Assembly (NCBI GenBank): GCA_001464575.1
Contig: LNFE01000169.1
Coordinates: 1-33,513 of the forward strand
Reading direction: 5' to 3'
Origin: Acidobacteria bacterium Ga0077553
GTDB taxonomy: Bacteria; Acidobacteriota; Terriglobia; Bryobacterales; Bryobacteraceae
DNA length: 33,513 nucleotides
Below, one piece after another: positions 9,646-24,007 of the stretch; the first letter of the stretch is position 1, and every line of letters begins with the position of its first letter. The notes under the pieces were generated by a model that saw only the letters and a program-made list of their open reading frames with translations, made no database searches and was not told the origin of the DNA. Position numbers and translations under genes: made by a program.

Positions 9646-10840
9646 ACGGCCAGGCGGCGGAAGTGGGAACGGGAACGGCGGCGGAGGCGGGAATCGCGGA
9701 TCCTGGGGCCGGCGGAAGTTCAACAACCGGCGGCGGGGTACGCCGGCGGGTGGTGAGGGAGTGGGAGCGGCCAGCGCGCCTCCCCCAACAGCCGCGGCGC
9801 CGCCTCCTCCACCGCAGCAAATGCGGAGCGGCGAGGGGAACGGGAACGGGAACGGCCACGGGCGGCAGAACGGCAACGGCAGGCGCAACGACCGCGATGT
9901 GCGGGGCAACCGTAATCGGCGGCGTGGGCCGCAGCGGCGGGCCGGGGGCTTCCGGGCGCCGGGCGGCGGCGGCATTCGCGCGCAGACGAAAGGCTCGCGC
10001 TTTGGTGAGAACTGGTGGGCGCGGCGCTGGATCGAGGTGCTCGAAAGCTTCGAGATGGGCTCGCGGCTCAACCGGGGCCGAGACTACGCCAAGAGCGGGC
10101 ATGTGCTGGCGATCACGATTGACGAAGGGCACGTGCATGCCCGGGTGCGTGGGTCGCGGCCGAAGCCGTACGACGTCGACATCAACATCAACACAATTCC
10201 GGAAGAAGACTGGACCCGCGTGGGCGCGAAGCTGGCCGAGCAGGCCGTGTTTTCGGCGACGCTGCTGGCCGGCGAGATGCCGGGCGACATCGAAGAGATT
10301 TTTGAAGAGCTGGGCCTGTCGCTGTATCCGAAGAACGAACAGGACCTGGTGACGAGCTGCACGTGCCCGGATACGGCGAACCCGTGCAAGCATCTGGCGG
10401 CGGTTTATCTGCTGCTGGGCGAAGAGTTCGATCGCGACCCGTTCCTGCTGTTCACCATGCGTGGCATGCGGCGGGATAAGCTGCTCGCGATCATCGAGAA
10501 GAACCTGCCGCAGGCGCTCGACGCCGAAGCGCAGCGGGACGACGAAGAGTTGGCGCCGGTGGAGGAGCCGAAGCAGGCCCTGCAACTGGACCCCGACATC
10601 TACTGGAAAGGCGCGGTGCGGATGCCCGAAGACGCAATGGGCGACGTGGCGCCGCCGGCGATCTCCGCCGCGCTGCCGCGGCGGTTAGGGCCCTTCCCTT
10701 TCTGGCAGGGCCAGAAGACGCTGCTCGATGCGATGGAGCCCGTGTATAGACGGGCCTCACAACATGCGGTGGTCTTTTTGCTGGGCGAGCCGCTGCCGGC
10801 AGCGGCCAATGGAACTACCGGCGGCCCGAACCCGCAGTGA
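9638..10840 (+). CDS. SWIM zinc-finger protein, partner of the SNF2 helicase
   Basis: 400 residues from the ATG at 9638. This start is preferred over the GTG at 9623 because GGAGG (9627-9631) stands 6 bases before it and it overlaps the helicase stop. Residues 1 to about 115 are low-complexity, rich in Gly, Asn and Arg (GNGNGNGHG, RNRRRG) with a proline run, likely disordered and nucleic-acid binding in the manner of RGG tails. The rest has the conserved block ENWWARRWIEVLE, RGRDYAKSGHVL and the zinc-binding SWIM motif C241-x-C243-x6-C250-x-H252 (SCTCPDTANPCKH). SWIM domains bind DNA or proteins. Operon position suggests it works with the SNF2 ATPase. The 3' end overlaps the converging ABC-F gene by 26 bases. 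Confidence 0.93.
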   Translation: MSKRPGGGSGNGNGGGGGNRGSWGRRKFNNRRRGTPAGGEGVGAASAPPPTAAAPPPPPQQMRSGEGNGNGNGHGRQNGNGRRNDRDVRGNRNRRRGPQRRAGGFRAPGGGGIRAQTKGSRFGENWWARRWIEVLESFEMGSRLNRGRDYAKSGHVLAITIDEGHVHARVRGSRPKPYDVDININTIPEEDWTRVGAKLAEQAVFSATLLAGEMPGDIEEIFEELGLSLYPKNEQDLVTSCTCPDTANPCKHLAAVYLLLGEEFDRDPFLLFTMRGMRRDKLLAIIEKNLPQALDAEAQRDDEELAPVEEPKQALQLDPDIYWKGAVRMPEDAMGDVAPPAISAALPRRLGPFPFWQGQKTLLDAMEPVYRRASQHAVVFLLGEPLPAAANGTTGGPNPQ

Positions 10841-12412
10841 CACCCTTAGAGGCTTGATACTCCTCGTACGGGCCCTTGAAGTCTTCGATCTCATTGTTGT
10901 CGACGGCCCAGATGCGGGTGGCGACGGCGTCAATGAGGTCGTGGTCGTGCGTGACGATGAAGACGGTACCGTCGAACTTCTGGAAGGCGAAATTCAGGGC
11001 GTTGATTGCTTCGAGGTCCAAGTGGTTGGTGGGTTCGTCGAAGACGAGCACGTTGGGCTTTTCGAGCATCAGACGGCAGAAGATGAGCCGGGCGGCTTCG
11101 CCACCGCTGAGCGCGTGGGTGGGCTTGGCGCCTTCTTCCCCGGTGAAGAGCATCTGGCCAAGGGTGCCGCGGATCTCTTCGCGGCTGGCCTGGGGGTCGA
11201 AGGTGTGGAGCCATTCGAAGGCGGTGGTGCCTTTTTCGATTGATTCTTTATGGTCCTGCGCGAAATAGCCGATGCTGGTTTCGTGGCCCCACGTGACTTC
11301 GCCGGAGCCGACGGAGGTGTCTTTCTCTTTGGCTGAGGTGACCGGTCCGTTGTCGAGCAGGGCGCGGAGAAGGTTGCGATGCGTTCGCCGCGGCTGACGT
11401 GGGCGGAGAAGGGCTTGAAGACGAGTTGGTCACCGTAGGAGCGGGTGAGGTTTTTCACCTCGAGCGGATGCTTGCCGGAGGGGCGCTTCGAGACAAACTT
11501 GATGAACGGGCGGGCGATGTTGGAGCGCTTGAGGTCAGAGACTTCGAGGCGCTCGACTTCCTTGGCGCGGCTGCGGACCTGGCTCGCGCGGGTGCCGGCA
11601 CTGAAGCGGGAGATGAACTCGTTCAACTGCGCGATCTTCTTTTCGCGTTGCGCGTTGTCGGCTTCGACGCGGGCGCGGACCTGGGTCTTGGCCATCACCA
11701 TGTCGTCGTAGCCGCCGGTATAGACGATGATCGTCTGGTAGTCGATGTCGGCGGTGTGGGTGCAGACGGAGTTGAGGAAGTGGCGATCGTGGGAGATCAC
11801 GATCATGGTGCCTTTGAAGTTGTTGAGGAAGTCCTGGAGCCAGTGGATGGAGTCCAAGTCCAAGTGGTTCGTCGGTTCGTCCAGCAGGAGGGCTTCGGGG
11901 TTGCCGAAGAGGGCCTGGGCGAGCAGCACGCGGACTTTCTGGCCGCCCTGGAGCTCGCTCATTTTCCGTTCGTGGAGCTCTTCGGGGATGCCGAGGCCGC
12001 CGAGGAGGATGGCGGCGTCGGAATCGGCGGAGTAGCCGTCCTCTTCGCCGACGATGCCTTCGAGCTCGCCGAGACGGATGCCGTCTTCGTCGGTCATGTC
12101 GGCTTTGCTGTAGAGGACTTCGCGCTCTTCGAGGGCGCTCCAGAGGCGTTGGTTGCCCATGATGACGGTATCGACGACGCGATAGGCATCGAAGGCGAAC
12201 TGGTCCTGCTTGAGGACGGACATGCGCTTGGGCCGGGTGACGGTGCCTTTTTGGGCGTCAATCTCCCCGGAAAAAATCTTCATCAGGGTGGATTTTCCGG
12301 CGCCATTGGGGCCGGTGAGGCCGTAGCGGCGGCCCGCCACGAACGCGACAGAGACATCCTCGAACAGAACTTTTGCGCCGTAGCGCATCGAAACGGAACT
12401 TACAGAAATCAT
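10815..12412 (-). pseudogene. ABC-F ATPase (YbiT-like), frameshifted by a deletion across the second Walker A
   Basis: The first part (12412 to about 11375) encodes a good YbiT-like ABC-F N-terminus: RYGLTGPNGAGKST (Walker A, Lys40), ELQGGQKVRVLLAQAL, LLLDEPTNHLD, then the linker region and the start of the second ATPase domain up to RGERIA. There the frame changes. The continuation in another frame reads NLLRALLDNGPVTSAKEKD, then GYFAQDHKE, LSGGEAARLIF, VLVFDEPTNHLD and a normal C-terminus ending at 10815. Between RGERIA and NLLRALL an intact protein would carry about 10 residues (a G-x-N-G-x-G-K-S/T Walker A); these and one extra base are absent, so roughly 31 bases are missing near 11374/11375. 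As written the gene gives a 447-residue product with a nonsense tail. ABC-F proteins act on ribosomes. It could be an assembly error. Confidence 0.85.
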
Positions 12413-13080
12413 GCGGCGGTATTCCCTTGCGAGTATAGCAACCCGCCTGCGAGGGCCCGGAATCGGCGCTACTGTTCACTTGGGGCGATGGCGCGTCGGC
12501 CATTCGCTGGAGAGCTCCCGCACGCCGAGCTTGCGCGGAGATTTACCCTTCCGCACCCAGGTTGGGATATGAAGTGTTGTCGACTCCACGGGGGCACACG
12601 TGGGGTAACCGGGGGCGAAGTGCAGGTTCCTTAAGCGCACGTTTTGAGGACTGCGCCAACGCAGGGCGAAGCATTAACGTAAATGAAGACGAGGAGCAAT
12701 GCAGCATCACGACGAAATCGCATGACGCCTGCATCCGGCTCCGCTTGCGTGGAGTCGCCAAGTGGAAAACTGGAGCCACCCGCCAGGATCGAACTGGCGA
12801 CCTGCTGATTACGAAACAACTTTTGCTTTACAAACCACTGCAAACAGGGACACTCCACGTCCACCGGGAGGGCCATTCGATGCTGTTTGGGCAGTAGTTG
12901 AACAGGTTGTTGAACAGGACGATGGTCCAAGATGCCTCCCGGAGGCCTGTTCTTACCGTGCCTCGTTAGCTCGGAGCTTGCGGTGACGGACTCGTCCCGA
13001 TCGGCGGGGGGTTCTACCGGGACAGCCATGAGCTTGAATCTGCCAGATCCATCATAGAAGGCGCTTTTGGCGAATTTCTC
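12413..13080. other. Non-coding stretch around the left edge of the integrated element
   Basis: No convincing gene. Upstream of the ABC-F start there is a TATACT hexamer on the minus strand (12437-12432) that could be its -10 box, without a clear -35. Bases 12770-12815 are the displaced tRNA-Thr 3' half, described separately. Bases 12816-13080 contain no protein I can recognise and no integrase. Open frames crossing the tRNA fragment on the minus strand contain the NQQVASSILAGG string that is typical of spurious frames over tRNA genes. Confidence 0.5.
12770..12815 (-). repeat. Displaced tRNA-Thr 3' half (outer attachment site of the element)
   Basis: These 46 bases are identical to 23242-23287. 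They cover the tRNA-Thr from the first bases of the anticodon loop through the T-arm and acceptor strand to one base past CCA. Identity stops abruptly at both ends (next bases a/t at the left, a/t at the right). The 5' half of a tRNA is absent here, so this is not a functional gene but the att-site copy left by integration. Confidence 0.9.
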
Positions 13081-13512
13081 GTGTCGAAGCGCCAAGTCCG
13101 CCACGTCGAGGCGATTGAACTCGTTCGCGAGCGGCGGGACAAGGCGCAACAGTTGCTCGGATTCGCGGCCAGGCCTTTCGTCCTTTGTGGCCTGCCCGTG
13201 CGCCGACCAGCCAGTTCGACTCTCGTCTATGAGCGGCGAAATGGATCGTTCTCCTTGCAGATCACCGGGCACCCGCAGTTTGGTTTGCCCTATGGGCAGG
13301 ATCGGTTGGTGCCGATCTTCCTGGCAACTCTGGCGGTGCGCCAACAGAGCCAGGTCATCCGGTTCAAGTCAGCTGCTCAAATGCTGGACACATTCGGCAT
13401 GGCGAAGGGAGGCAAAGCGACAAGGAACACCTTTCGCGGGTTCCGTTCAGCGAATTGGATTAGGACTTGGGTTAAGGGCTGTGCTGAAGTGCACGGATGT
13501 CCGTGGAGATAA
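13081..13512 (+). pseudogene. RepA-like plasmid replication initiator fragment
   Basis: 143 residues from a GTG; no ATG exists upstream in frame before the stop at 12967. The stretch RPFVLCGLPVRRP, LVYERRNGSFSLQITGHP, FGLPYGQDRLVPIFLATLAV and the following RQQSQVIRFKSAAQMLDTFG match my memory of RepA-type replication initiators of plasmids (RepA_C family) and their relatives in acidobacterial genomes. Such proteins continue with a YRR...GFxRIF region and another 100 or more residues. Here the sequence degenerates after GGKATRNTFRGF and stops, so the C-terminal half is missing. An intact initiator would bind and open an origin; this copy is probably dead. It lies 265 bases inside the left repeat, supporting a plasmid-like origin for the element. 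Confidence 0.6.
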
Positions 13513-13825
13513 CAACTGAGGAGATGCCTGTTACGATTTCGTATAAATGGGTTTGTCATCAATCACCAACTCTGTTCTCAGGTTAGGTTCGCACCCGTGT
13601 TGGGGGAGCCAAACTCTAAAACTGTCGCGCGGCTAGTTGACCTTGCGCCGGGGCAGTTCTTTCGGTGCAGAAGACTGAGCCCTGGTACCACCAGTCGAAA
13701 GAGCGGCCCCCGATCGCAAGGGGGAGGTGCCAAGTTTGAGTTGGGCGGTTGCTGAACCGTGGCAACATTTTCCACGCAAGGAAGAGCTCCCACCGGATGG
13801 GGATGGGAGCTCTTACTGGTTGGGC
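13513..13825. other. Intergenic stretch without recognisable gene
   Basis: Between the RepA-like fragment and the end of the mannonate-dehydratase-like gene. I see no supported coding frame. The only clear structure is the hairpin at 13782-13814. Confidence 0.4.
13782..13814 (-). terminator. Hairpin terminator after the mannonate-dehydratase-like gene
   Basis: A perfect 11-bp inverted repeat, AAGAGCTCCCA (13782-13792) and TGGGAGCTCTT (13804-13814), with an 11-base loop. It starts 11 bases after the stop codon at 13826 when read on the minus strand. There is no strong T run after the stem, so it is a plausible but imperfect intrinsic terminator. Confidence 0.55.
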
Positions 13826-14998
13826 TTATGCGCGTGCGGTGCGCAGAGCGGACTTGTACATCGCGTTCATCGAGCCGAGCAGGTAGGCCAGGCCCGGATG
13901 GGGCCGGTACTCGCCTTGGGCGGCGCCGCGGCTGGTGTCGGGCAGGTTGGGATTGGTGCCGACGGCAGGGATGTGATCGGGGATCACGATGCCGTCGAAC
14001 TTCACGTCGACGAGCGCCTGCATGGCCTTGGACATGTCGTAGTAGCCATCGTCGATGAGCGCTTCGACAAAGTGGGGCAGAGGCGCCGTCACGTTGCGGA
14101 AGTGCACCTTGAACAGCTTCTTCTTGGCCGCGAAATACTTGATGACCTCGACTGGGTCGGCGCCTGTGTTCTTCTCGCCACCTTCAAGCCAGGAGCCGAT
14201 GCAGAAGCAGACCCCGATGTTGGGGCTGTCGGCGATCTCAATCGCCTTCTTATATCCTTCGAAGTTCGAGAAGATGCAGCGCGGGACGCCGGCGAGCATG
14301 CGCATGGGCGGATCGTCGGGATGGATGCCGATTCGCACGCCAGCCTCTTCGGCGACGGGCTTTACCTTCTTGATGAAGTAGATGTAGTTGTCCCAGATTT
14401 CCTGTTCGGTATAAACCCGTCCATGGGAGAGCGGACCGGTGAAGGTCTTGCCGGCCCAGACGCCTTTCCACTCGGGACTGTTCGCATTGCCGTCGCGCGC
14501 AGAGTAGCCGCGGGCGCTGGTGACGCGTCCACTGGACCAGATTCCGTTCCCCATGTGGGCGTAGGTGGAGTAGGGCACTTTGGCTTTGCCCAGGTACCGG
14601 ATGTAGTTGAGATATTCCTCAATCTTCTGGTCGCGGCCAGGGAGGTTGAGGGTGACCTCGGACATGTTGTGGAGGCTGCCGGAGGGTCCGACGCCGCTGC
14701 CGATGTTGTAGATCCGGAAGCCTTCGGCTTCCCAGGCGGCTTTTTGTTTGATGAAGCCTTCGGCGGTGGCCTCGGCCTGGATGGGTGCGAGGCTGAGCCA
14801 CTGGACGCCGAGTTGCTTGAGGTAGTTCGTATATTCCGGGGAGAGTCGATTGGCGGAGACGCCGATCTTTAGACCCGGGGGGATCGGGATCATCGGCTTG
14901 GCATGGGCCGCGGGGGCGGTTGCCGCTAATGCGGCGGCACCGGCGAGAGCCATGCCTGTAATGTCCCTTCTGCTGGGATCGTTTTTCTGGTCGCTCAT
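13826..14998 (-). CDS. Mannonate dehydratase-like (UxuA family) protein with Tat signal
   Basis: 390 residues from the only ATG that fits, at 14998; the frame is open further up but without similarity. The N-terminus is a twin-arginine signal (DPSRRDITGMALAGAAALAA...AHA), unusual for an enzyme that is normally cytoplasmic. The body is a TIM-barrel of the UxuA type: GVRIGIHPDDPP (221-231), a Cys in FCIGSW, a His in KVHFRN and an Asp in IPDH, corresponding to the Mn/Fe ligands of mannonate dehydratase, which converts D-mannonate to 2-keto-3-deoxygluconate. Such enzymes belong to uronate catabolism. Given the signal, this may be a secreted relative with a different substrate. It lies downstream of the receptor on the same strand, 178 bases after its stop. 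Confidence 0.8.
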   Translation of the reverse strand: MSDQKNDPSRRDITGMALAGAAALAATAPAAHAKPMIPIPPGLKIGVSANRLSPEYTNYLKQLGVQWLSLAPIQAEATAEGFIKQKAAWEAEGFRIYNIGSGVGPSGSLHNMSEVTLNLPGRDQKIEEYLNYIRYLGKAKVPYSTYAHMGNGIWSSGRVTSARGYSARDGNANSPEWKGVWAGKTFTGPLSHGRVYTEQEIWDNYIYFIKKVKPVAEEAGVRIGIHPDDPPMRMLAGVPRCIFSNFEGYKKAIEIADSPNIGVCFCIGSWLEGGEKNTGADPVEVIKYFAAKKKLFKVHFRNVTAPLPHFVEALIDDGYYDMSKAMQALVDVKFDGIVIPDHIPAVGTNPNLPDTSRGAAQGEYRPHPGLAYLLGSMNAMYKSALRTARA

Positions 14999-15067
14999 GG
15001 AGGAAAGTCCGTTTCTAAAGTTGGATGTGGAATTCCGAAGGGATGGTATCGGGTTGGGTCGTGTTTG

Positions 15068-15091
15068 GCAAGCCGGTGCTAAGCGGCTTGC
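15068..15091 (-). terminator. Hairpin between the receptor and the mannonate-dehydratase-like gene
   Basis: A perfect 8-bp inverted repeat, GCAAGCCG (15068-15075) and CGGCTTGC (15084-15091), with an 8-base loop. It lies 86 bases after the receptor stop and 70 before the next ATG on the minus strand. Without a T run it may be a weak terminator, a processing site or an attenuator that sets the ratio of the two genes. Confidence 0.4.
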
Positions 15092-15176
15092 TGAGTTAGT
15101 CAGACGGCAGGCTCGTTCCGGTTGCCCCCATCTGCAGGGCTTCGTAGGGCCTCGGCATTGACGGCAGTGTTGGTGA

Positions 15177-18100
15177 TCAAAACTGCAGCCTGAGACCGAG
15201 TTGGATGTTGCGGGGGGCGCCGCCTGCCAGTACTTGGCCGAACTGGGGCGCGCCGATCGTAACACTGGATCCGGTTCCAAGACTGAGAGCCGGGGTGTTG
15301 AAGATGTTGGTGATGTCGGCGCGGAGCTGGACGAGGATGCGTTCGCCGATGGGTTGATTACGGATGAAGCCCATGTCCCAGTTGCGGCGGCCGTAGTTCC
15401 GGAGCTGTGGCTGGGTCAAGGAGTCGGTCGGGATGGTGTAAGCGGGCGCCTGGGTGAAGGCGCTGGTATTGAAGTAGCGGTTGGTGGAGCTTTCGCCGTC
15501 AGGCAGGACGGGATTGCCCACACGGTTGCCGCGGCCACCGGAGAGGGCAAAGTCATAAAGGAACGTGTTATCCGCGCCCGCGATACGGATGGGGGTGCCG
15601 GACTGGAATACGGTGATGCCGGAAACCTGCCAATTTCCAATGATGGCGGCGAGGACGCCGTCGGATACAAACCGCTTCTTCTTACCGAAGGGCAAGTCGT
15701 AGAAGTAGCTCATCACGAGGCGGCGGGGAATGTCGTTGGTCTCGATGGAGCGATTGTATCGGGGGTTGTAAAGGGCGTTCTGAGGGAATGCTTCCGAGGC
15801 ATCGGATTCAAAGACGTTGGCGATGGTCTTCGAGCCGGTGAAGGAGGCCGAGAGGGTGAGGCCGTTCGAGTAGCGCTTCTCTAGAGAGAGCTGCAGGGAG
15901 TGATAGTTGCCGTGGCCGTAGCCTTCGCGGGGGAAGAGGACTTGGAGGTATTGCGGGTAGGGGCGGAGCAACTGACGGCGTTGGACCGTGGCGAAGCTGA
16001 GATTGCCGCTGCGGATCTTTCCGAAGAAGGGGTTCGGCACGTTGTCGAGCAGGGAGGAGCCGAGCGATAGAAGGGCCGGATCGTTCTGGTTGTTGAACCG
16101 GTTCTGCGCGATGTGCGTAATCTTGTTGCCGACGTAGCCGGCGGAGATGACGATGTTGCTGCCGATGAGGCGTTGGATGTTGAAGCTCCAGTTGCCGACT
16201 TCGGGGAGGGGACTATCGCGATTGAACGTGCGGAGGTTTTCCCCGGCGAAGGTGGAGTTGCGATTGGGCTGAGGGAGTCCACCGGCGAATGGGTTTAACC
16301 AGGAGCCGCCGGGAGGCGGGGTGTTGGCGAAGGGGCTGGGTGCGCCGAGGGTGCCTTCGTAGAGAGTGAAGAGGCCATTGCCCCAGTCGGAGGTGCCGGC
16401 GTTGATGGTGTTGGATGCGGCGTAGAAGTAACCGGCGCTGAGCCGGATGACGGTCTTCTCGTTGAGCTTATAGGCGAGTCCCAGGCGTGGGGCGAAGTTC
16501 ATGCGCTGGGGATCGGTTTGGAATTCGCCGGGATTGAGGAACTTAAAGGTGCCTTTCATGCCGGTGACGGGTTCAATGCCGTTGAAGTCGAAGGACCCGA
16601 TGCGGCCGTACTTTTCGGCCCAGGGCTGCGTGTATTCGTAGCGCAGGCCGAGGTTGAGGGTGAGGTTCTTCGTGACTTGGACGTCGTCCTGGATGTAGCC
16701 GCCGAAGAAGCGGCGATAGAGGGTGAGGTGGGGATCGAAGGACTGGCGGTTGGAGATGGGCACGCCGAGCAGGAAGCTGGCGAAGCCAGAGCCGGAGGTG
16801 GTGGCGCGGACCAGGGGGTCTGGGCCCTGAGTGTAGACGCGATCGAAGAAGTAGGCTCCGGCGGGGCTGTTGGTGGCGAAGGAAGCGAGTCGCAGGAGTT
16901 GGGTTTCGCCGCCGAACTTCACCTTGTGGCGATTGCGGAGGTAGGTCATCTGGTATTGGAGCTGCCAAGTGTCTTGTGGAGTTCGGACGAGGTTGGCGCC
17001 GTTGAGGCCGCTGACCTCGGCCGAGGATCCGCTTGAGACGGAGAGTCCGGTGCCGACGGTGTATTGGGCGACGGAGATGTTGGGAAAAGTTCTGTAGCCC
17101 ATGGCGCCGACGACACTCGCTGGCAGGCCGAGGGTGGAGACGTCGAAGCCTTTGCCGTCGAACTCGGAGAGGGCGCCGAGGCGCGTGTAGCCGAGGCGGA
17201 GTTCGCCGATGAAGGACGAGGTAAAGGTCGAGGTGGCGGAGATCATGGCGGAGTGGCCGGGGTTCGACTGGATGGTCTGGGGTACGAGGGCGACCATCGA
17301 ATCGTCGAGACCCTTCGAGAAGTTGCGTTGGCGGCGGCCGTAGTATCGGCCGAAGAGGCGGTGTTTATCGCTGAGGTTGTGGTCGACGCGGCTGACCCAG
17401 AGGTCCTGCTCGAGGGCACGTGCGCCGGCGACGAAGAAGTTGTTGAACTCGGCGGGCCCTTCGCCAGGGCGATTGGCAGATGGCCAGTACTTGAGGACAT
17501 TGGCGGAGACGGCGTTGATGCGCTGGGAGGGGACTCGATTGCCGGGGAAGGGGTCTCGGATAAGAGCGGTGCCGTTGGTGCGCGTGGTGATGGGATCGAA
17601 GACGGTGATTTGGCGGCCGGAGGGGTCGAGAGTGCCATTGAAATCGCCGGTACGTTGCGCGGCGGTGGGGACGGTGTTGAGTGACTGAATGGGAGCGGAC
17701 TGGAGGGTGCGCTCAAGGTTGCCAAAGAAGAAGGTGCGATTGCGGATAATGGGACCGCCGAGGGAGCCGCCGAATTCATTGCGGCGGAATACGCCACGGT
17801 TGACACGGTTGCGGTTGTTGGTCCAGGAGTTGGCGTTCAGCCTGTCGTTGCGGAGGTACTCGTAGCCGGATCCGTGGAAGGTATTGCTGCCAGATTTGGT
17901 GACGAGGTTGACGACGCCACCGGCGGCGCGGCCGAATTCAGCGCCGTAAGTGGCGGTGTCGACGCGGTACTCGGCGACTGATTCCATGGGGATGGTGAAC
18001 GCGGTTTTGGAGTTGACGGTGGCGCGGCTTTCGCCGCCATCGGTGAGGACGGCGTTGTCGCGAGCCATGCCGCCAGACATTTTGGCGTTGGTGGCGTCGC

Positions 18101-18605
18101 CGTTGGTATCGCCGCCGACGGGGGTGACGCCGTGGAGGAGGGATACGAGTTGGAGGGGATTGCGGCCGATTAGGGGTAGGGTGTTGATGGTCTCCGTGGG
18201 GAGGACTTTGCCGAGGGCGGTGGTTTGCGCTTCGAGTTGAGCGGCTTCGGCGCGGACCTCGACGGTTTCCGAGACGGCGCCGATTTCGAGGCGCACGTTG
18301 TAAGTGGCGGTGGTGCCGGCGCCGAGTACGATGTTGGAGACCACGGCGGCGCGGAATCCGGCATGTTCGACGCGGAGTTCATACTGTCCCGGGGAGAGCG
18401 CGGGGAGATAGAAGAGGCCGGCCTGATTGGTGGCGGTTTTCAGAATGATGTTGGTGGTTGTATTGCGGAGCGCCACCTGAGCGCCCACGATGTTTGCCCC
18501 GGAGGTGTCGGTGGCGGCGCCGGTGATCGTGGCGCGCTCACCTTGTGCTAGCAGAGCTACGGTGGAGAGTAATCCGATCAAGAGGGGACGAAGAGTCAGA
18601 GACAT
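15177..18605 (-). CDS. TonB-dependent receptor with carboxypeptidase-regulatory domain (Oar-like)
   Basis: 1142 residues. A signal peptide (LLIGLLSTVALLAQ) is followed by a carboxypeptidase-regulatory-like (Cna-B-type) domain at about 22-110 (TITGAATDTSGANIVGA, GQYELRVEHAGF). A plug-like segment follows (TINTLPLIGRNPLQL, YGAEFGRAAGGVVNLVTKSG, SGYEYLRNDRLNAN). The rest is a large beta-barrel ending in LGLRLQF, with the terminal Phe typical of outer-membrane proteins. These very long receptors are greatly expanded in Solibacter-type acidobacteria and are thought to import glycans or other large substrates. The ligand is unknown; the mannonate-dehydratase-like gene downstream hints at a sugar-acid or uronate polymer. 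A strong promoter stands just upstream. Confidence 0.93.
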   Translation of the reverse strand: MSLTLRPLLIGLLSTVALLAQGERATITGAATDTSGANIVGAQVALRNTTTNIILKTATNQAGLFYLPALSPGQYELRVEHAGFRAAVVSNIVLGAGTTATYNVRLEIGAVSETVEVRAEAAQLEAQTTALGKVLPTETINTLPLIGRNPLQLVSLLHGVTPVGGDTNGDATNAKMSGGMARDNAVLTDGGESRATVNSKTAFTIPMESVAEYRVDTATYGAEFGRAAGGVVNLVTKSGSNTFHGSGYEYLRNDRLNANSWTNNRNRVNRGVFRRNEFGGSLGGPIIRNRTFFFGNLERTLQSAPIQSLNTVPTAAQRTGDFNGTLDPSGRQITVFDPITTRTNGTALIRDPFPGNRVPSQRINAVSANVLKYWPSANRPGEGPAEFNNFFVAGARALEQDLWVSRVDHNLSDKHRLFGRYYGRRQRNFSKGLDDSMVALVPQTIQSNPGHSAMISATSTFTSSFIGELRLGYTRLGALSEFDGKGFDVSTLGLPASVVGAMGYRTFPNISVAQYTVGTGLSVSSGSSAEVSGLNGANLVRTPQDTWQLQYQMTYLRNRHKVKFGGETQLLRLASFATNSPAGAYFFDRVYTQGPDPLVRATTSGSGFASFLLGVPISNRQSFDPHLTLYRRFFGGYIQDDVQVTKNLTLNLGLRYEYTQPWAEKYGRIGSFDFNGIEPVTGMKGTFKFLNPGEFQTDPQRMNFAPRLGLAYKLNEKTVIRLSAGYFYAASNTINAGTSDWGNGLFTLYEGTLGAPSPFANTPPPGGSWLNPFAGGLPQPNRNSTFAGENLRTFNRDSPLPEVGNWSFNIQRLIGSNIVISAGYVGNKITHIAQNRFNNQNDPALLSLGSSLLDNVPNPFFGKIRSGNLSFATVQRRQLLRPYPQYLQVLFPREGYGHGNYHSLQLSLEKRYSNGLTLSASFTGSKTIANVFESDASEAFPQNALYNPRYNRSIETNDIPRRLVMSYFYDLPFGKKKRFVSDGVLAAIIGNWQVSGITVFQSGTPIRIAGADNTFLYDFALSGGRGNRVGNPVLPDGESSTNRYFNTSAFTQAPAYTIPTDSLTQPQLRNYGRRNWDMGFIRNQPIGERILVQLRADITNIFNTPALSLGTGSSVTIGAPQFGQVLAGGAPRNIQLGLRLQF

Positions 18606-18628
18606 TTATGGGAGGGTCCGGCGGCAAG

Positions 18629-18655
18629 ACTATATGGCCCGCGGGGGAGTGTCAA
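18629..18655 (-). promoter_or_regulatory. Promoter of the TonB-type receptor
   Basis: On the minus strand a perfect TTGACA (18655-18650) is followed, after 15 bases, by TATAGT (18634-18629). The hexamers are near consensus for a sigma-70-type factor, though the spacer is 2 bases short. A start about 7 bases downstream would leave a leader of around 17 bases before the ATG at 18605, with no clear Shine-Dalgarno. Confidence 0.6.
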
Positions 18656-18720
18656 GGGGTAGTCTTGTCTCGGTAGCTAGTGTAGTGCTTCGGTACTCGC
18701 AACCAGTATGCGCGCGCGAC

Positions 18721-18841
18721 TAGGCACGCACCTTGCAGCGCCTTCTGCACGAAGGTGTAGCTGAGGTGGATGTCATGTTTCTCTCCCAAGTTCTCGTGAA
18801 AGTGCCGAATGTTCAGGTCGAGCATTCTAAGCTGGCAATTG
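18721..18841 (-). pseudogene. Transposase remnant (ISNCY-type)
   Basis: On the minus strand bases 18841-18721 read LDLNIRHFHENLGEKHDI, then HLSYTFVQKALQGACL. This matches my memory of the segment before the DDE core in ISNCY-family transposases (pattern LNVxHFHEKLxEEHGIxLSYTWVQxALQxAGL). Only about 35 residues remain; I see neither the catalytic core nor terminal inverted repeats. The rest of the 18606-18936 interval holds the receptor promoter and no other gene. Confidence 0.6.
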
Positions 18842-18936
18842 ACCCCAAATCTACCATCTCTGGCAGTGACGGCTCCGCAGCGTGCACGCCAGGCGCCAGA
18901 ATGATTGCTTTGCGGATTCTTCCGTGGGTTGATCAG

Positions 18937-20238
18937 CTACCGCTTTCGGAACAACACGTACTGTAGCGGCTCGTAGTCGCTATCGGTGAGGATGAGCAAA
19001 TAGCCGTTTTGAATCGCTTCTAGGCGGGCCCAGAACTTCTTAGACTTGCCGCCAACGCGGTTGGTCGCGGTGACCTCCCAATCGGAGACCGTAAAGCGGC
19101 CCTGGTAGTCCGTACCGGCGAACTTGGCACCCGAATCGCTAGTGCTCGCGTACCGATGCGTACTGCGATAAGTTCCGTCAGTGCTGAACACGAATTCGTC
19201 CGAAGTAGAATTCGCGCTCATGCCGGCATAGCTGCCAGTGTAGGCGTTGTAGTATTCGACCCCACCCCCAGCGTTGCGCACCCATGTGCCAGCAAGGTCC
19301 TGGACGGCAAGCCCAAAGCGGTTGTAGGTGAGAGTGCGATCAAGCTCGTTTGGATGGCGGAACAATTGGCTGTACGTCCGTTCATCGGGGCTGACGACGA
19401 GAACGACGCGTGCGCCTCCCGAGAAGATGACTTTCATCGCGATAAAGCATGGCTTGCCGGTTTGAAGATCGGTCGCGGTGGCGTCCATGAAGTACACCGG
19501 CGGGTAGCTGACACCGGAATATTTACGTGGCGTGGAAGCGCGGAAGGAAGGCGCCACCAATCGGCTCCAGAAGTATTCCGGGACATCGACGGTATTGGGT
19601 CGGCTGTTTTCGAGGGCGGAATTGACGTAGTAAAGGCGTAACTCGGTGGACGCTTTGTTGACTTGGACGTAGTCAGGACGGACCTGGGCAATCCATCCGT
19701 CATCAAAGTTAGTGCGCGGTTTGGACATGACCATGCTGGAGCGATCGGGCTGGGGGGCGACCGGGGCGGCGGGCTCGTCGACAACAACCGAGTTCGTGAA
19801 TGCGGCGATGTCGTCAGCAAATCGCATGTCGTTGAAGTAGCTGACGATGGCGTAGGTTTGGGATTTGCTGCTGCGGGTTGTGATGAGGATGATGAACTTC
19901 TGGTTGGGCGAACCGGCCGTACCAGCACCAGCAGTCACCTGCCATGTGTCTTGGACGGAGGATTTCACATTTTCTGGCGTTGGAGCACCATGCTTGGCGG
20001 CATGCGACTTCCAGTCGGCGGCAAAGTCTGAGTCGTGGCGGCCGCTTGAAGGGCGCGGCCGGAAAACGTGGATACTGCAATATTGGGCACCGTTGTCCTG
20101 CTTGACCGCGACGAACATGTCCGTACGCTCGACCTTCCATCCCTTGGGCGGGTTGAAGCTGAAGGGCTCGAAACGATCCCACGCAACCATCGCAGTCGGG
20201 AAGAGCACACAAAGAGCGAGCAGGAAGTATCGTGGCAT
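18937..20238 (-). CDS. Secreted protein of unknown function, lipocalin-like C-terminal region
   Basis: 433 residues with a clear signal peptide (MPRYFLLALCVLFPTAMVAW). The N-terminal part (FNPPKGWKVERTDMFVAV, then FIILITTRSSKSQ) resembles secreted proteins that recognise user-like stress or lipid ligands only vaguely, and I do not assign a family. The last ~120 residues (DLAGTWVRN, TGSYAG, FVFSTDGTYRS, GRFTVSDWEVTATN, LEAIQNGYLLILTDSDYEPLQ) look like a single beta-rich lipocalin/calycin-type domain of the kind seen at the end of acidobacterial and verrucomicrobial exported proteins. No catalytic motif is visible. It stands alone, on the minus strand, inside the tRNA-bounded element. Confidence 0.8.
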   Translation of the reverse strand: MPRYFLLALCVLFPTAMVAWDRFEPFSFNPPKGWKVERTDMFVAVKQDNGAQYCSIHVFRPRPSSGRHDSDFAADWKSHAAKHGAPTPENVKSSVQDTWQVTAGAGTAGSPNQKFIILITTRSSKSQTYAIVSYFNDMRFADDIAAFTNSVVVDEPAAPVAPQPDRSSMVMSKPRTNFDDGWIAQVRPDYVQVNKASTELRLYYVNSALENSRPNTVDVPEYFWSRLVAPSFRASTPRKYSGVSYPPVYFMDATATDLQTGKPCFIAMKVIFSGGARVVLVVSPDERTYSQLFRHPNELDRTLTYNRFGLAVQDLAGTWVRNAGGGVEYYNAYTGSYAGMSANSTSDEFVFSTDGTYRSTHRYASTSDSGAKFAGTDYQGRFTVSDWEVTATNRVGGKSKKFWARLEAIQNGYLLILTDSDYEPLQYVLFRKR

Positions 20239-20517
20239 ATCGACCTCTGGACTAGGCTAACAGCATTGACCAAGTTGCGGAGTTACGTGGCCGAGGCCTC
20301 ATGGCACCGGATTAGTCGCCGAAAGCCCAATAATGGCTCAGGCACCGTAGCGTCGTGAGCGATTAGCTGGCACCGAAGCGATAACAGGCGCGGTCTCCCA
20401 AGTATTGCTCGTTTGCGAGGCTACTGCATCGCCTAGGCCATCCAATTAGCTCACCGCCTATGACTTGCCTTAGCCGAAACGAAGTAGACCAAACTTGCAG
20501 GTGTACCCGCCCTGCCT

Positions 20518-21179
20518 ATGCCGATTGACCAAATGTTCGACTCTGCATACCGGGCGCTTGAGGCGCGAATGAGGGCGCTAGCGGAAACTGATGGCGACGT
20601 GTTTCTGCCCAACCCAAAGCCGCTCGCACCTGTCCAGGACGTTCTGATTTGCATGGAAGCTTGTCTGCCGCGCGGGAGTTGCCAGGACTGAGCGATATGA
20701 CCGGTGGTACGCGCTCCTACGTGAGGAGATTGATCTGTGCGTCACGCCCGATGCTCGCATCGTCGCGGTCGGCAATGTTGTTTCGCAGCATCATCGGCGA
20801 AGCGGGTTCCCCCGGCCATTCACTCGGGTAATCCACTACTCCAACCAAGCAGGGCCAGCCAGGCTACCGGGGATCGTTGGCCACGAGGACGGTTTCCAGG
20901 CGTTCATTCAATGGATCTGTCACCTTGAGGGACTTCGTTTATTCAGCGGCGGCCGCCCTGGAGACAGCCGGTGTGCCATCAGAATTCCGCGATGAGGCGT
21001 TGAAGCGGCTGGCGAAAAGTGAGCTGACAACATCCCGCCAGCAACTCATCTTCAACTACAAGCTGGCGTTCGAATCGATGCGTTTTCGAGAGGGCTCTAT
21101 CTGCTCATTTGTGGGACCCTATCGTCGTCCCATCGCGTCAGCCGTAATGGGTCTACCCATTTGCATCGCCGCCTCATGA
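20518..21179 (+). pseudogene. Disrupted conserved gene of unknown function (three frames)
   Basis: Three coding-like pieces in order on one strand, each in a different frame. Piece 1 from ATG 20518: MPIDQMFDSAYRALEARM ... VFLPNPKPLAPVQDVLICME, then a stop after 55 residues. Piece 2 from about 20669: RAGVARTERYDRWYALLREE, RIVAVGNVVSQHHRR, FTRVIHYSNQAGPARLPGIV, ending near 20905. Piece 3 from about 20910 to the stop at 21179: SVTLRDFVYSAAAALETAG and LAKSELTTSRQQLIFNYKLA. The pieces read as one protein that lost a segment of unknown size near 20655 and suffered a further shift near 20905. Piece 2 resembles a uracil-DNA-glycosylase-like core (AVGNVV...VIHYS), a weak inference. It cannot make a full product as written. 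Confidence 0.6.
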
Positions 21180-21267
21180 GCCCCCATCACCCGACGGCAA
21201 TCCCTCTGTACTGTTAGACTCGCAGTCATTGGCAAGAACTGAATTACCGATGCATACGCCCGGGAGC

Positions 21268-21272
21268 GGAGG
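21268..21272 (+). promoter_or_regulatory. Shine-Dalgarno deciding the isochorismatase-like start
   Basis: GGAGG 10 bases before the ATG at 21283. It favours this start over the upstream TTG/ATG candidates at 21229 and 21250, and the protein then begins directly with a signal-like sequence. Confidence 0.6.
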
Positions 21273-21282
21273 TTTTTTTGAA

Positions 21283-22200
21283 ATGAGGCTCGTCGACCGA
21301 AGGTACTTTCTACAATCTATTCCCTCAGCGATGATGCTGGCAGCAGCTGCGTCCCCTCCTCAGCTAGCTGCGCTTCCCAATCGGCCCAAGGTCCCAGGGA
21401 CCTTAAGTCTTCGTGCCCGCCGACGAACAAAAGAGACCGGACCCGCTGAGCAAACATTGCAGTGGCCGGTTGCGCGCACCGCGATCATTATCTGCGACAT
21501 GTGGGATTCACACACGTGCGGAATGTCAGCGCAGCGTGTCGCTTTGATGGCGCCCCGAATGAATCAAGTCGTCAGCGCCGCTCGAAGTCTGGGCGTTATG
21601 ATCATCCATGCGCCGAGCGACACGATGAAGTTCTACGACGGAACCCCATGGCGCGAGCGGATGAGGAATGCACCTGTTGCCGCATCCCCTTTCCCGATTA
21701 TCAATCGCTGCCCGCGGGTTCCGGCCGAGGAGCGCGATTTCCCTATTGACGATTCCGCTGGAGGATGCGACGATCCGATTTTGAAAGAGTTCACCGGCCC
21801 GCCCTACCCGTGGACCCGCGAACACCCGGCGATTGACATTGTGGGCTTCGACGGAGTGAGCGATAGCGGCCAGGAGGTATACAACTTCTGTAAGCAGGAG
21901 GGTATAGACAAGATCGTGCTGATGGGGGTCCACACGAACATCTGTATCCTGAACCGCGGGTTCGGCACAAGACAGATGACGCGCCTTGGCTTCGACGTCG
22001 TACTGGCTCGAGACCTCACAGACGCAATGTACGATCCAAGAACGCGACCGTTCGTTAGCCACGCACGCGGAACTGAGCTGGTTGTAGAGCACATCGAAAC
22101 TATGTGGGCGCCGACAATCCTGTCTGAAGATTTGACTCGCGTGGTGCCGGGGACGGCAGATGTGCCAGCGCGACCAGAGAAGCGACGGTCCGGAGGCTGA
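21283..22200 (+). CDS. Isochorismatase-like cysteine hydrolase, probably exported
   Basis: 305 residues from the ATG at 21283. The N-terminus MRLVDRRYFLQSIPSAMMLAAAA is a likely export signal (twin-arginine-like, Arg6-Arg7). The fold is of the isochorismatase/nicotinamidase superfamily: AIIICDMWDSH with catalytic Asp72, and GVHTNICIL with nucleophile Cys221. The third residue of the triad (Lys) is probably in the LKEFTG region near 168. Family members hydrolyse isochorismate, nicotinamide, ureides or carbamates. The extra insert between 110 and 200 (TPWRERMRN, PRVPAEERDFP, GGCDDP) sets it apart from cytoplasmic nicotinamidases. Substrate unknown. It follows the disrupted gene by about 100 bases within the element. 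Confidence 0.85.
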   Translation: MRLVDRRYFLQSIPSAMMLAAAASPPQLAALPNRPKVPGTLSLRARRRTKETGPAEQTLQWPVARTAIIICDMWDSHTCGMSAQRVALMAPRMNQVVSAARSLGVMIIHAPSDTMKFYDGTPWRERMRNAPVAASPFPIINRCPRVPAEERDFPIDDSAGGCDDPILKEFTGPPYPWTREHPAIDIVGFDGVSDSGQEVYNFCKQEGIDKIVLMGVHTNICILNRGFGTRQMTRLGFDVVLARDLTDAMYDPRTRPFVSHARGTELVVEHIETMWAPTILSEDLTRVVPGTADVPARPEKRRSGG

Positions 22201-22524
22201 GACCCATTGATGTTTCTGCCGCTGGCCGATTCTGCGGGTGCCGACCGTGGTCCGGTGCAGACATTGGCGGCGTTCGATTGAAGGCCGGGCGGCGTTAGCA
22301 GACGCGACGCACAAACGCTCGTTGCTGATTGCTGCCGGAAGTCGGCGGCCTGCATCATCGTTATGAGCGCCGTGCCGCATAAAGGCATTTTCGGCGCAAT
22401 TCCACCTGCATTGGCCGGGGCCGCGCCCGTGAGGCGCGACAAGAGCGTGTAGGTGCCTGTTAATTTCCGGCGATGTGCAAGAATTAATGGGACTTACGTT
22501 TGCTTGACGGTCTGCGATGGTTGC
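22201..22524. other. Intergenic stretch, nothing recognised
   Basis: Between two genes that converge. I find no supported coding frame, tRNA or clear repeat. Codon-like patterns in this stretch on either strand did not match a family I know. Confidence 0.4.
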
Positions 22525-23145
22525 TTACAGGTGTAAGCCGCTGAGCCCGATTACACCGAAGAGGCCGGGTTCGGCAGCGCCCGACTCGGGCGTGAGCGCC
22601 GTAGGGTCAAGGCTCCATCCGGCAGCGACGCGCATGACGTCGTCTTCATCGGGGCGCCACTCGTCTTTGGGCCGATGGAAGAAGGGTATACTGCGTTCTA
22701 CTTCCGTCAGCGGCCCAAAGTCATCCAGGAACTCGCCTTGATCACCCGCGTATTCGAAACTTCTGACGATCTCTCCCGCTTTCGCCAGCATCCAGTGGTG
22801 GTATTCCGAAACCCGGTGCGTAGCGAATCCTTGCGCTTCACCGAATCTCTGGCTGATTCGATCCAACGAGTTCCGAAACGACTTGTTGGGCTGCGGGTCG
22901 GCGATGGCGGCGGCGGACCAGCCGACCACGAACGTCCAGCCGCGGATGGCGGGCGAGAGAAACACAGCCTGCTCTTGAGAGCCGTAGGCTGCCTCGATCC
23001 CTGCGGTCCAGGAAAGCTCGCAGCCCGAGTTCAGTTGAAGAAACTCGCCCACTTCTGCAGGACGATCGCAGCGCACGGCAATCCACGCCATCTTGTAGCC
23101 GAACGGCACCGGACCAGTGGGACGTGTTTTGCGGAGCCAAGGCAT
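22525..23145 (-). CDS. Conserved hypothetical protein
   Basis: 206 residues from ATG 23145. It starts with GYKMAWIAVRCDRP near residue 16 and has the conserved-looking pieces AIRGWTFVVGWSAAAIAD, LDRISQRFGEAQGFATHRVS and EYHHWMLAKAGEIVRSFEYA, then EDDVMRVAAGWSLDP. I have seen this layout in hypothetical proteins of actinobacteria and myxobacteria but know no function. No signal peptide or membrane segment is visible, so it is probably cytoplasmic. It is the gene nearest the tRNA-side edge of the integrated element, where an integrase would be expected, but it has no recombinase motif (no R-H-R-Y pattern). Confidence 0.8.
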   Translation of the reverse strand: MPWLRKTRPTGPVPFGYKMAWIAVRCDRPAEVGEFLQLNSGCELSWTAGIEAAYGSQEQAVFLSPAIRGWTFVVGWSAAAIADPQPNKSFRNSLDRISQRFGEAQGFATHRVSEYHHWMLAKAGEIVRSFEYAGDQGEFLDDFGPLTEVERSIPFFHRPKDEWRPDEDDVMRVAAGWSLDPTALTPESGAAEPGLFGVIGLSGLHL

Positions 23146-23241
23146 GGGAGGCTACAAAACTGCCAGCGCCAAGCTACCGGCTGACCGAAAAACAACGACG
23201 CACCAGAGGGGCGGGCCAACATGAGATCGCGTCTAGATAAT

Positions 23242-23287
23242 CTGGAGCCACCCGCCAGGATCGAACTGGCGACCTGCTGATTACGAA
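23242..23287 (-). repeat. tRNA-side copy of the 46-bp attachment repeat
   Basis: Identical to 12770-12815. It covers the 3' part of the tRNA-Thr gene from the start of the anticodon loop to one base past CCA. In the integration model this copy came in with the element and restored the tRNA. Confidence 0.9.
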
Positions 23288-23318
23288 TCAGCCGCTCTAC
23301 CAACTGAGCTAGGGTGGC
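23243..23318 (-). tRNA. tRNA-Thr (anticodon CGT)
   Basis: The reverse strand folds as a standard 76-base tRNA: acceptor GCCACCC/GGGTGGC, D-arm GCTC..GAGC, anticodon stem GCTGA/TCAGC with loop TTCGTAA, a 5-base variable loop, T-arm GCCAG/CTGGC with TTCGATC, discriminator T and an encoded CCA. Anticodon CGT reads the Thr codon ACG. It is the integration target of the element to its left. Confidence 0.96.
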
Positions 23319-23377: not shown

Positions 23378-24007
23378 ATGCAGAAGCCCCGCCTCGTTAT
23401 CCTCGGTTCCGGCGGCCATGCGAAAGTCATCGCGGAAATCTTCGAAGAGACCTCCTCGTTCGAAATCGCGGGCTTCACCACGCTCTCGCCTACCGAATCC
23501 CTCTTCGCCTACCCCCACCTCGGCAACGACGACGAACTCCCCCGTCTCCTCGCTAAGGGCATCACCCACGCCTTTCCCGCCATCGGCAGCAATCGCATCC
23601 GCCACCGCATGCTCGCCCACCTCCGCTCGCTCGGCTTCACCCTCCCCAACGCCATCAGCCGTCACGCCATCCTCTCGCCCCGCACCCAACTCGGCGCGGC
23701 CGTCGCCATCATGCCCGGCGCGATCGTCAACGTCGACTCCACCATCGAGGACGGCGCCATCCTGAACACGGCCTCTTCCATCGACCACGATAACCACATC
23801 GGGGCCTGCGCCCATGTCGCCCCCGGCTGCCATCTGGCCGGCAACGTAACCGTCGGGGAAGGCGCCTTCATCGCCGCCGGCTCGGCCGCCATCCCCGGGG
23901 TCACCATCGGGCCCTGGGCCACCGTCGGCGCGGGCGGAGTCGTCATCCGGGATATCACTGCGGGCGTTACCGTCGTCGGCGTGCCTGCCACGCGGCTGTT
24001 GCGATGA
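23378..24007 (+). CDS. NeuD/PerB-type sugar O/N-acyltransferase (left-handed beta-helix)
   Basis: 209 residues. An N-terminal Rossmann-like region with LVILGSGGHAKV (residues 6-17) precedes hexapeptide repeats forming a left-handed parallel beta-helix (AIVNVDSTIEDGAIL, CHLAGNVTVGEGAFIAAG, VTIGPWATVGAGGVV) with a His in IDHDNHIG as likely catalytic base. Family members acetylate sialic acid, bacillosamine or GDP-perosamine on nucleotide-activated sugars using acetyl-CoA. The perosamine-synthase-like aminotransferase further along the same operon makes an N-acylating role for this enzyme plausible. Its stop overlaps the next start (ATGA at 24004-24007). It is the first gene of the polysaccharide operon and lies 60 bases right of the tRNA. 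Confidence 0.92.
   Translation: MQKPRLVILGSGGHAKVIAEIFEETSSFEIAGFTTLSPTESLFAYPHLGNDDELPRLLAKGITHAFPAIGSNRIRHRMLAHLRSLGFTLPNAISRHAILSPRTQLGAAVAIMPGAIVNVDSTIEDGAILNTASSIDHDNHIGACAHVAPGCHLAGNVTVGEGAFIAAGSAAIPGVTIGPWATVGAGGVVIRDITAGVTVVGVPATRLLR

Follow-up and report, generated by a model that had tools for sequence, protein, structure and literature searches.

A block of DNA inserted at a tRNA-Thr gene of an acidobacterium, likely a stranded member of a RepA-carrying family of conjugative elements

What is the DNA, about 10.5 kb long, that lies between a tRNA-Thr gene of Acidobacteria bacterium Ga0077553 and a second, displaced 3' half of the same gene, and how did it get there? The locus is found in positions 1 to 33,513 of contig LNFE01000169.1 (assembly GCA_001464575.1), a stretch of 33,513 nucleotides referred to below as the window, and the DNA in question spans positions 12770 to 23287. 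A preliminary description, made from the letters of the window, saw here an old plasmid-like element that had entered at the tRNA and lost its recombination genes. Comparison with related genomes makes it likely, in our judgment, that the block is an insert at the 3' end of the tRNA-Thr gene and a stranded remnant, of the type called a cis-mobilizable element (CIME), of a family of acidobacterial conjugative elements that carry the plasmid-type initiator gene repA.

The tRNA-Thr site, empty and filled

ARAGORN places the intact tRNA-Thr(CGT) at 23243-23318 on the minus strand. Its 3' half, at 23242-23287 and likewise on the minus strand, is the second attachment (att) copy by repeat alignment; the first, the displaced tRNA-Thr 3' half at 12770-12815 on the minus strand, was defined by repeat alignment and a core search. 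The two form a perfect 46-bp direct repeat in the same orientation, 10,472 bp apart, and their alignment can be extended to 52 bp at 96%. The source assembly is a draft of 308 contigs and 6.45 Mb, and the 45-base core of the repeat occurs in it at exactly two places with up to three mismatches, compared with zero for a reversed control, so that the repeat is neither a chance match nor a dispersed sequence. The isolated half ends at the 5' edge of the anticodon loop, and the orientation and order of the copies fit insertion at a tRNA 3' end with the break at that edge. The perfect repeat of the preliminary description is thereby borne out, and the anticodon-loop crossover proposed there agrees with the position of the break.

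The left chromosomal flank is an ABC-F ATPase gene (10815-12412, minus strand), recognized by comparison with relatives, and the right flank is an acyltransferase-type gene, labeled by sequence reading (23378-24007, plus strand), which adjoins the tRNA in two of those relatives, G017 and G008. In G017, a genome of the same genus, matches to the window up to 12450 and from 23241 onward lie on one contig, separated by just 37 bp. To judge from this alignment, G017 is a genome with the empty site, and it joins the two flanks directly, as had been predicted for strains lacking the element. In G008, 116 kb separate these flanks, with the tRNA at C7:39204 and the ABC-F flank at 155867, and three further tRNA halves in one orientation, at 63127, 129093, and 152775, divide the interval into four blocks. 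The half at 152775 is partly decayed (90% identical), and a search between the leftmost block and the ABC-F gene returned no att copy. The tRNA-Thr/ABC-F site is documented in three genomes, namely the window's own, G017, and G008. The ABC-F gene of the window is itself out of frame and about 31 bp shorter than in relatives, through a change within 11300-11440; longer copies are found in G017, G008, and others, and the shortening may be either a real loss or an assembly slip.

An assembly artefact, or a tRNA fragment simply duplicated with no mobile element involved, could be suspected in a genome of 308 contigs whose relatives often have contigs that end at this very repeat. However, G017 has both window flanks in one contiguous stretch, and G008 has matching left and right ends at this tRNA, which leaves such an explanation next to no credibility. 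Two further observations would have spoken against an insertion, and neither was made in the genomes examined: the same genes were not found without the copy of the tRNA half, and the repeat was not found at many unrelated tRNA loci by chance.

One part of the preliminary description calls for correction. It expected strains without the element to join the DNA left of 12770 directly to the tRNA. About 320 bp (12451-12769) lie between the left chromosomal flank and the displaced half, are missing from the empty site, and differ from the flank found there in G017. The left repeat therefore looks like a junction between two elements and not like the original chromosome border. Searches found no match to this scrap among the element loci compared and no att copy at its left edge; we propose that it is the remnant of a neighboring element, since deleted.

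The repA end and the family it marks

The DNA directly inside the displaced half ties the block to a wider family. A conserved left end (12816-13417, plus strand) recurs beside all three displaced halves of G008, where the counterparts of window positions 12770-13417 are 91.7%, 91.2%, and, in pieces, 85 to 91% identical. Within it lies a fragment of repA (12932-13443, plus strand) that covers, in two frames, residues 1-27 and 25-171 of a 341-residue G008 homologue, so that the RepA-like fragment of the preliminary description is real. A complete repA adjoins two of the three displaced G008 halves, and the complete 341-residue protein matches PF10134 (Replication initiator protein A) and PF04796 (RepA_C), both above cut-off. 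The ratio of nonsynonymous to synonymous substitution rates (dN/dS) is 0.10 to 0.13 between two G008 copies. The truncation in the window looks recent, because dN/dS against the complete copies is still 0.14 to 0.17. Among the plasmids of PLSDB, 428 of 72,556 records match the RepA, each at less than 60% identity (25.6 to 31.3% among the 15 matches listed). A second repA of the same family is present in the window's own genome (G000:C284, locus L083, 3,503 bp), with its upstream side cut off.

How general is the pairing of repA with a tRNA half? A RepA alignment of 11 rows, searched against one genome per species, gave 139 relatives, and 79 acidobacterial repA loci were kept, G008, G017, G024, and KBS 96 among them; many of these loci end at 10 kb or at a contig end. 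We counted a tRNA match when a strict 3' half lay at most 650 bp upstream of repA in one orientation, a rule applicable to the 74 of 79 loci with at least 300 bp upstream, and told halves from whole tRNAs with ARAGORN, run on 60 loci. A strict half was found upstream of repA in 50 of the 74 loci, compared with about 0.36 expected; the same rule applied elsewhere in the loci gave a background of 16 matches, or 0.0048 per 650 bp. In one of these 50 (L128), an intact tRNA-Cys takes the place of a half, and three loci (L097, L129, and L138) have an intact tRNA-Met facing repA. A relaxed count of 56/74 was set aside, as two of its extra matches (L103 and L108) looked false. The anticodon tally covers 51 loci, the 50 plus L120 (287 bp upstream), and comprises 28 Gly-CCC, 5 Thr-CGT, 2 Gly-GCC, 2 Gly-TCC, 4 Arg, and 3 Val, one each of Asp, Pro, an Ala type, and the intact Cys, and 3 that are unclear. 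Six loci (L127, L132, L139, L142, L152, and L159) contain a second copy of the half, which in L142 is an intact tRNA-Gly.

Some members retain the genes that the window lacks. A tyrosine recombinase lies within the DNA examined at 13 of the 79 repA loci, and in 8 of the 13 (L098, L107, L110, L112, L151, L152, L154, and L168) the integrase stands immediately to the left of the junction with repA and points the same way, which is what a circular element of the order int-attP-repA would produce. The integrase gene of L110 is in two pieces, and no strict half was found at that locus; in L152 the junction pieces are fragments. L098 and L107 have coupling protein, SSB, and ArdC-type genes together with the integrase. 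The fullest relative is found in KBS 96 (G041, KB906767.1), in a 172-kb tandem array (2310929-2483437) in which repA follows each of three halves (2310929, 2337672, and 2357691), an intact tRNA-Gly(CCC) is at 2483363, and no other strict half occurs between those copies. Its last block, the 126 kb from 2357691 to the tRNA-Gly, has repA at one end and, at the other, an integrase that lies 45 bp from the intact tRNA, together with genes for a TrwC relaxase, a coupling protein, and VirB4, VirB6, VirB8, VirB9, VirB10, and VirB11-type proteins; the two repA blocks to its left are both without an integrase. The integrase by the tRNA is 94% identical to another immediately left of the array. A 3.8-kb block of G024 reads half, repA, integrase pieces, half, and its left neighbor contains a TrwC relaxase, coupling-protein fragments, an HTH_17 protein, and an integrase. 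The window element thus shares its repA-att end with a family that stacks in tandem and includes members equipped with integrase and conjugation genes. The relatives with this end resemble integrative and conjugative elements (ICEs) or integrative and mobilizable elements, but the fullest of them sits at a tRNA-Gly.

These arrangements suggest how the window block may have formed. The intact circular element would carry int-attP-repA, with attP holding the tRNA 3' half, and the order int-att-repA is what is seen at block junctions. A tyrosine recombinase would cross over in the anticodon loop, and the incoming copy would rebuild the tRNA and push the old 3' half to the far end, which is the repeat geometry observed, alongside the empty site. 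The site on the tRNA side would stay usable, and further elements could insert one behind another; tandem blocks are indeed present in G008, KBS 96, and others, presumably built up in this order. Blocks would then lose their integrase and transfer genes and persist as cargo, which could move only with an intact neighbor or a helper integrase. In the window, repA would have been lost for the greater part, probably together with another block on the left.

The window contig has no PF00589 match in a profile search, and tblastn at an E value of 0.01 gave no match in the window with 13 tyrosine recombinases, nor for relaxase, coupling proteins, VirB4/10/11, ArdC, or SSB, in keeping with the earlier remark that no integrase is recognizable. 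PF08751 is absent from G000 (the window's genome), G008, and G017. Such a block might be no decayed remnant at all but a satellite, for which repA and att suffice and whose integrase normally acts in trans from another element. Three repA-marked G008 blocks without an integrase, two of them with a full-length repA at a dN/dS of 0.10 to 0.13, would suit a satellite, as would the 66 of 79 repA loci without an integrase within the DNA examined, the two integrase-less repA blocks beside an intact one in KBS 96, and a 6.6-kb repA block of L142 between a half and the intact tRNA-Gly, in which no integrase was detected. However, other members have an integrase at the expected end, the divergence of repA may predate arrival, many loci end at 10 kb or at contig ends, and the window's own repA is truncated; moreover, the five contigs of G000 with PF00589 matches resemble family integrases weakly, at no more than 31% identity. 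On balance, we regard a satellite as unlikely and prefer a stranded remnant.

Cargo, age and other users of the site

The main cargo of the block is shared with G008. A segment at 13551-18821 (minus strand) is 98.8% identical, by nucleotide comparison, to G008:C7:47750-53021, inside the tRNA-proximal block of that array. Profile scans identify in it a sugar-isomerase-type TIM barrel protein (UxuA/AP_endonuc_2; 13826-14998, minus strand) and an outer-membrane receptor (OMP_b-brl_4, CarboxypepD_reg, and a weak TonB_dep_Rec match; 15177-18605, minus strand), in agreement with the receptor and enzyme cargo noted before. The transposase scrap noted with them is also real (18652-18825, minus strand): homologue comparison makes it part of a gene that is longer in G008, and that longer homologue matches HTH_32 below the curated cut-off, while the scrap itself has no family match. 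Further to the right are a 433-residue protein with no match in Pfam, NCBIfam, or PHROGs (18937-20238, minus strand), an isochorismatase-domain protein found by profile scan (21229-22200, plus strand), and a fragment (22335-22445) that by comparison matches the end of an insertion sequence (IS)-like gene (rve_3) in the G008 array. The right end (22434-23140, minus strand) recurs piecewise in G008, in the block that adjoins the 152775 copy toward ABC-F, and includes a 206-residue open reading frame (ORF) without a family match in profile scans (22525-23145), kept in pieces in one G008 block. Other G008 blocks encode PhnI, PhnJ, and a phosphonate-binding protein; an asparagine-synthase-type protein; and polyketide synthase domains (1,000 residues scanned) plus a P450. 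Taken as a whole, the array at G008:C7:39204-155867 (L035-L040 and L011) holds a polyketide synthase region of two genes over 38 kb, a carbon-phosphorus (C-P) lyase operon, and receptor sets.

At fourfold-degenerate sites, identity between the window and G008 is 0.972 for the receptor and 0.990 for the TIM barrel gene, and 0.727, 0.620, and 0.860 for three flanking genes, the latter two compared over 330 and 292 codons. A partly homologous cargo region, about 85% identical, is found at another location in G017. From these values, the receptor/TIM-barrel cargo is best read as having been transferred after the species parted. The element of the preliminary description is accordingly plasmid-like, by its RepA, and without detected recombination genes, but its being old is unsupported, because the att repeat is perfect, the cargo is nearly identical (compared with 0.62 to 0.86 in the flanking genes), and the dN/dS of repA remains at 0.14 to 0.17.

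Elements of other kinds also enter at this tRNA. The Thr 45-mer was found, at up to two mismatches, in 93 of 150 family genomes, 37 of which have at least two copies, with 91 sites in all. The 80 sites inspected comprise 32 whole tRNAs, 40 halves, and 8 at contig ends, and repA is within 0.9 kb of 2 of the 40 halves; among the 11 other sites, repA accompanies the halves of the window (one), G008 (two), and G087 (two) and is missing from one half each of G087 and G002. Halves in other genera (L191, L199, L200, L211, L213, L214, L243, L247, and L248) are followed by left ends similar to each other (GAATTCGGACT, GAATATTCGC), which suggests another element family at tRNA-Thr. At seven loci (L184, L189, L216, L220, L257, L259, and L260), draft contigs break off at the tRNA-Thr repeat or no more than about 30 bp from it, and draft genomes will therefore under-report such arrays.

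One such user may be a phage. In G014 (L045, G014:C45), a tyrosine recombinase lies directly beside the intact tRNA-Thr on a contig that is phage-like by sequence reading, and it is about 50% identical, over 245 residues, to an integrase of G087. A phage specific for tRNA-Thr might thus have brought the window DNA, which then decayed. However, a plasmid-type RepA forms the left end, and conjugation genes are present in fuller relatives; scans of nine window ORFs with Pfam and of two with PHROGs recognized no structural phage gene, and repA, the 206-residue ORF, and the 433-residue ORF have no PHROGs match. A prophage origin is therefore very improbable.

Counterevidence, known elements and meaning

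Several observations weigh against a stranded remnant of a RepA-carrying conjugative family. The empty site is known from a single genome, and in G017 it could reflect a precise loss instead of the ancestral state. In six other members of the genus (G005, G009, G011, G012, G015, and G016), the ABC-F gene was not found beside the tRNA; the two are on different contigs, and the ABC-F stretches compared share other downstream DNA. The 98.8% block has transposase-like sequence at both ends in G008 and may have moved by itself, by an IS-driven route. No strict half was found at 24 of the 74 repA loci. Several positions of the intact tRNA-Gly of KBS 96 are different in the halves at 2337672 and 2357691, and the two ends of the one complete element therefore match poorly.

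The tRNA-Thr site itself adds to these difficulties, since no block there with both repA and an integrase was seen among the genomes examined. G087 has tRNA-Thr halves at 259686, 276480, and 281630, with repA after the third. Its first block has a repA, cut short, and no integrase, and the 5-kb block at G087:C8:276480-281630 (L080) is without repA and contains an integrase gene from which an internal stretch is missing; toxin-antitoxin-like genes, labeled by sequence reading, are also present in L080. A single 22-kb block with repA and integrase was considered for G087 and was ruled out by the half at 276480. RepA-type ends likewise failed as an explanation for most displaced tRNA-Thr halves: in multi-copy genomes repA is beside 7 of 47 inspected, and other element families therefore share this tRNA-Thr.

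Among the systems described before, CIMEs are the closest. They are said to have lost integration and transfer genes while keeping attL and attR, and to accrete in tandem (PMC5704250). The window block keeps both att sites and has no detected integrase or transfer genes, and its family stacks in tandem at one tRNA site; unlike in those elements, repA lies at one att end, the hosts are Acidobacteriota, and the cargo includes large metabolic clusters. The window block fits a CIME-like element, and its mobilization in cis is a prediction from sequence. An ICE would differ by its integrase, relaxase, coupling protein, and type IV secretion system, none of which was detected in the window. Actinomycete ICEs (PMC3218068) likewise combine a plasmid-type initiator with a tyrosine recombinase, use tRNA 3' ends, and occur as tandem copies, but their order is att-tra-rep-int-att, whereas here repA and the integrase lie at opposite ends, and a TrwC relaxase and VirB-type genes are found in KBS 96. 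Additive flexible genomic islands (PMC10872708) share the recurring tRNA-end repeats, which there are the last 20 bp of tRNA-Lys and here extend over about 45 bp, as far as the anticodon loop, with repA adjoining. Tycheposons (via PMC10872708 and PMC11389934) are also tRNA-bordered cargo elements, of 4 to 200 kb, but have a tyrosine recombinase, of which none was found in the window. For acidobacteria, ICEs are mentioned without details in the portions available of PMC3158045 and PMC7661733, and candidate islands with tRNA genes and integrases are reported for Ca. Solibacter usitatus (PMC3174227). By a literature search limited to titles and abstract openings, the RepA-marked tRNA family appears undescribed.

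Acidobacteria are common soil bacteria of which few gene-transfer systems have been worked out. A repA gene beside a tRNA half offers a simple sequence tag for the start of such a block, and with it, variable islands that look featureless can be divided into units, dated, and traced across species; the polyketide synthase region and the C-P lyase operon of the G008 array are located in such units. A wider reading, which we put forward tentatively and hold to be possible rather than probable, is that one phylum-wide RepA-marked family, stacked at many tRNAs (Gly, Thr, Val, Arg, Asp, Pro, and others) and with integrase-less satellites mobilized again by fuller members, builds the tRNA islands of acidobacteria. 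If this is true, whole pathways would pass between species as interchangeable cassettes, among them the polyketide cluster, the C-P lyase operon, and the receptor/TIM-barrel sets.

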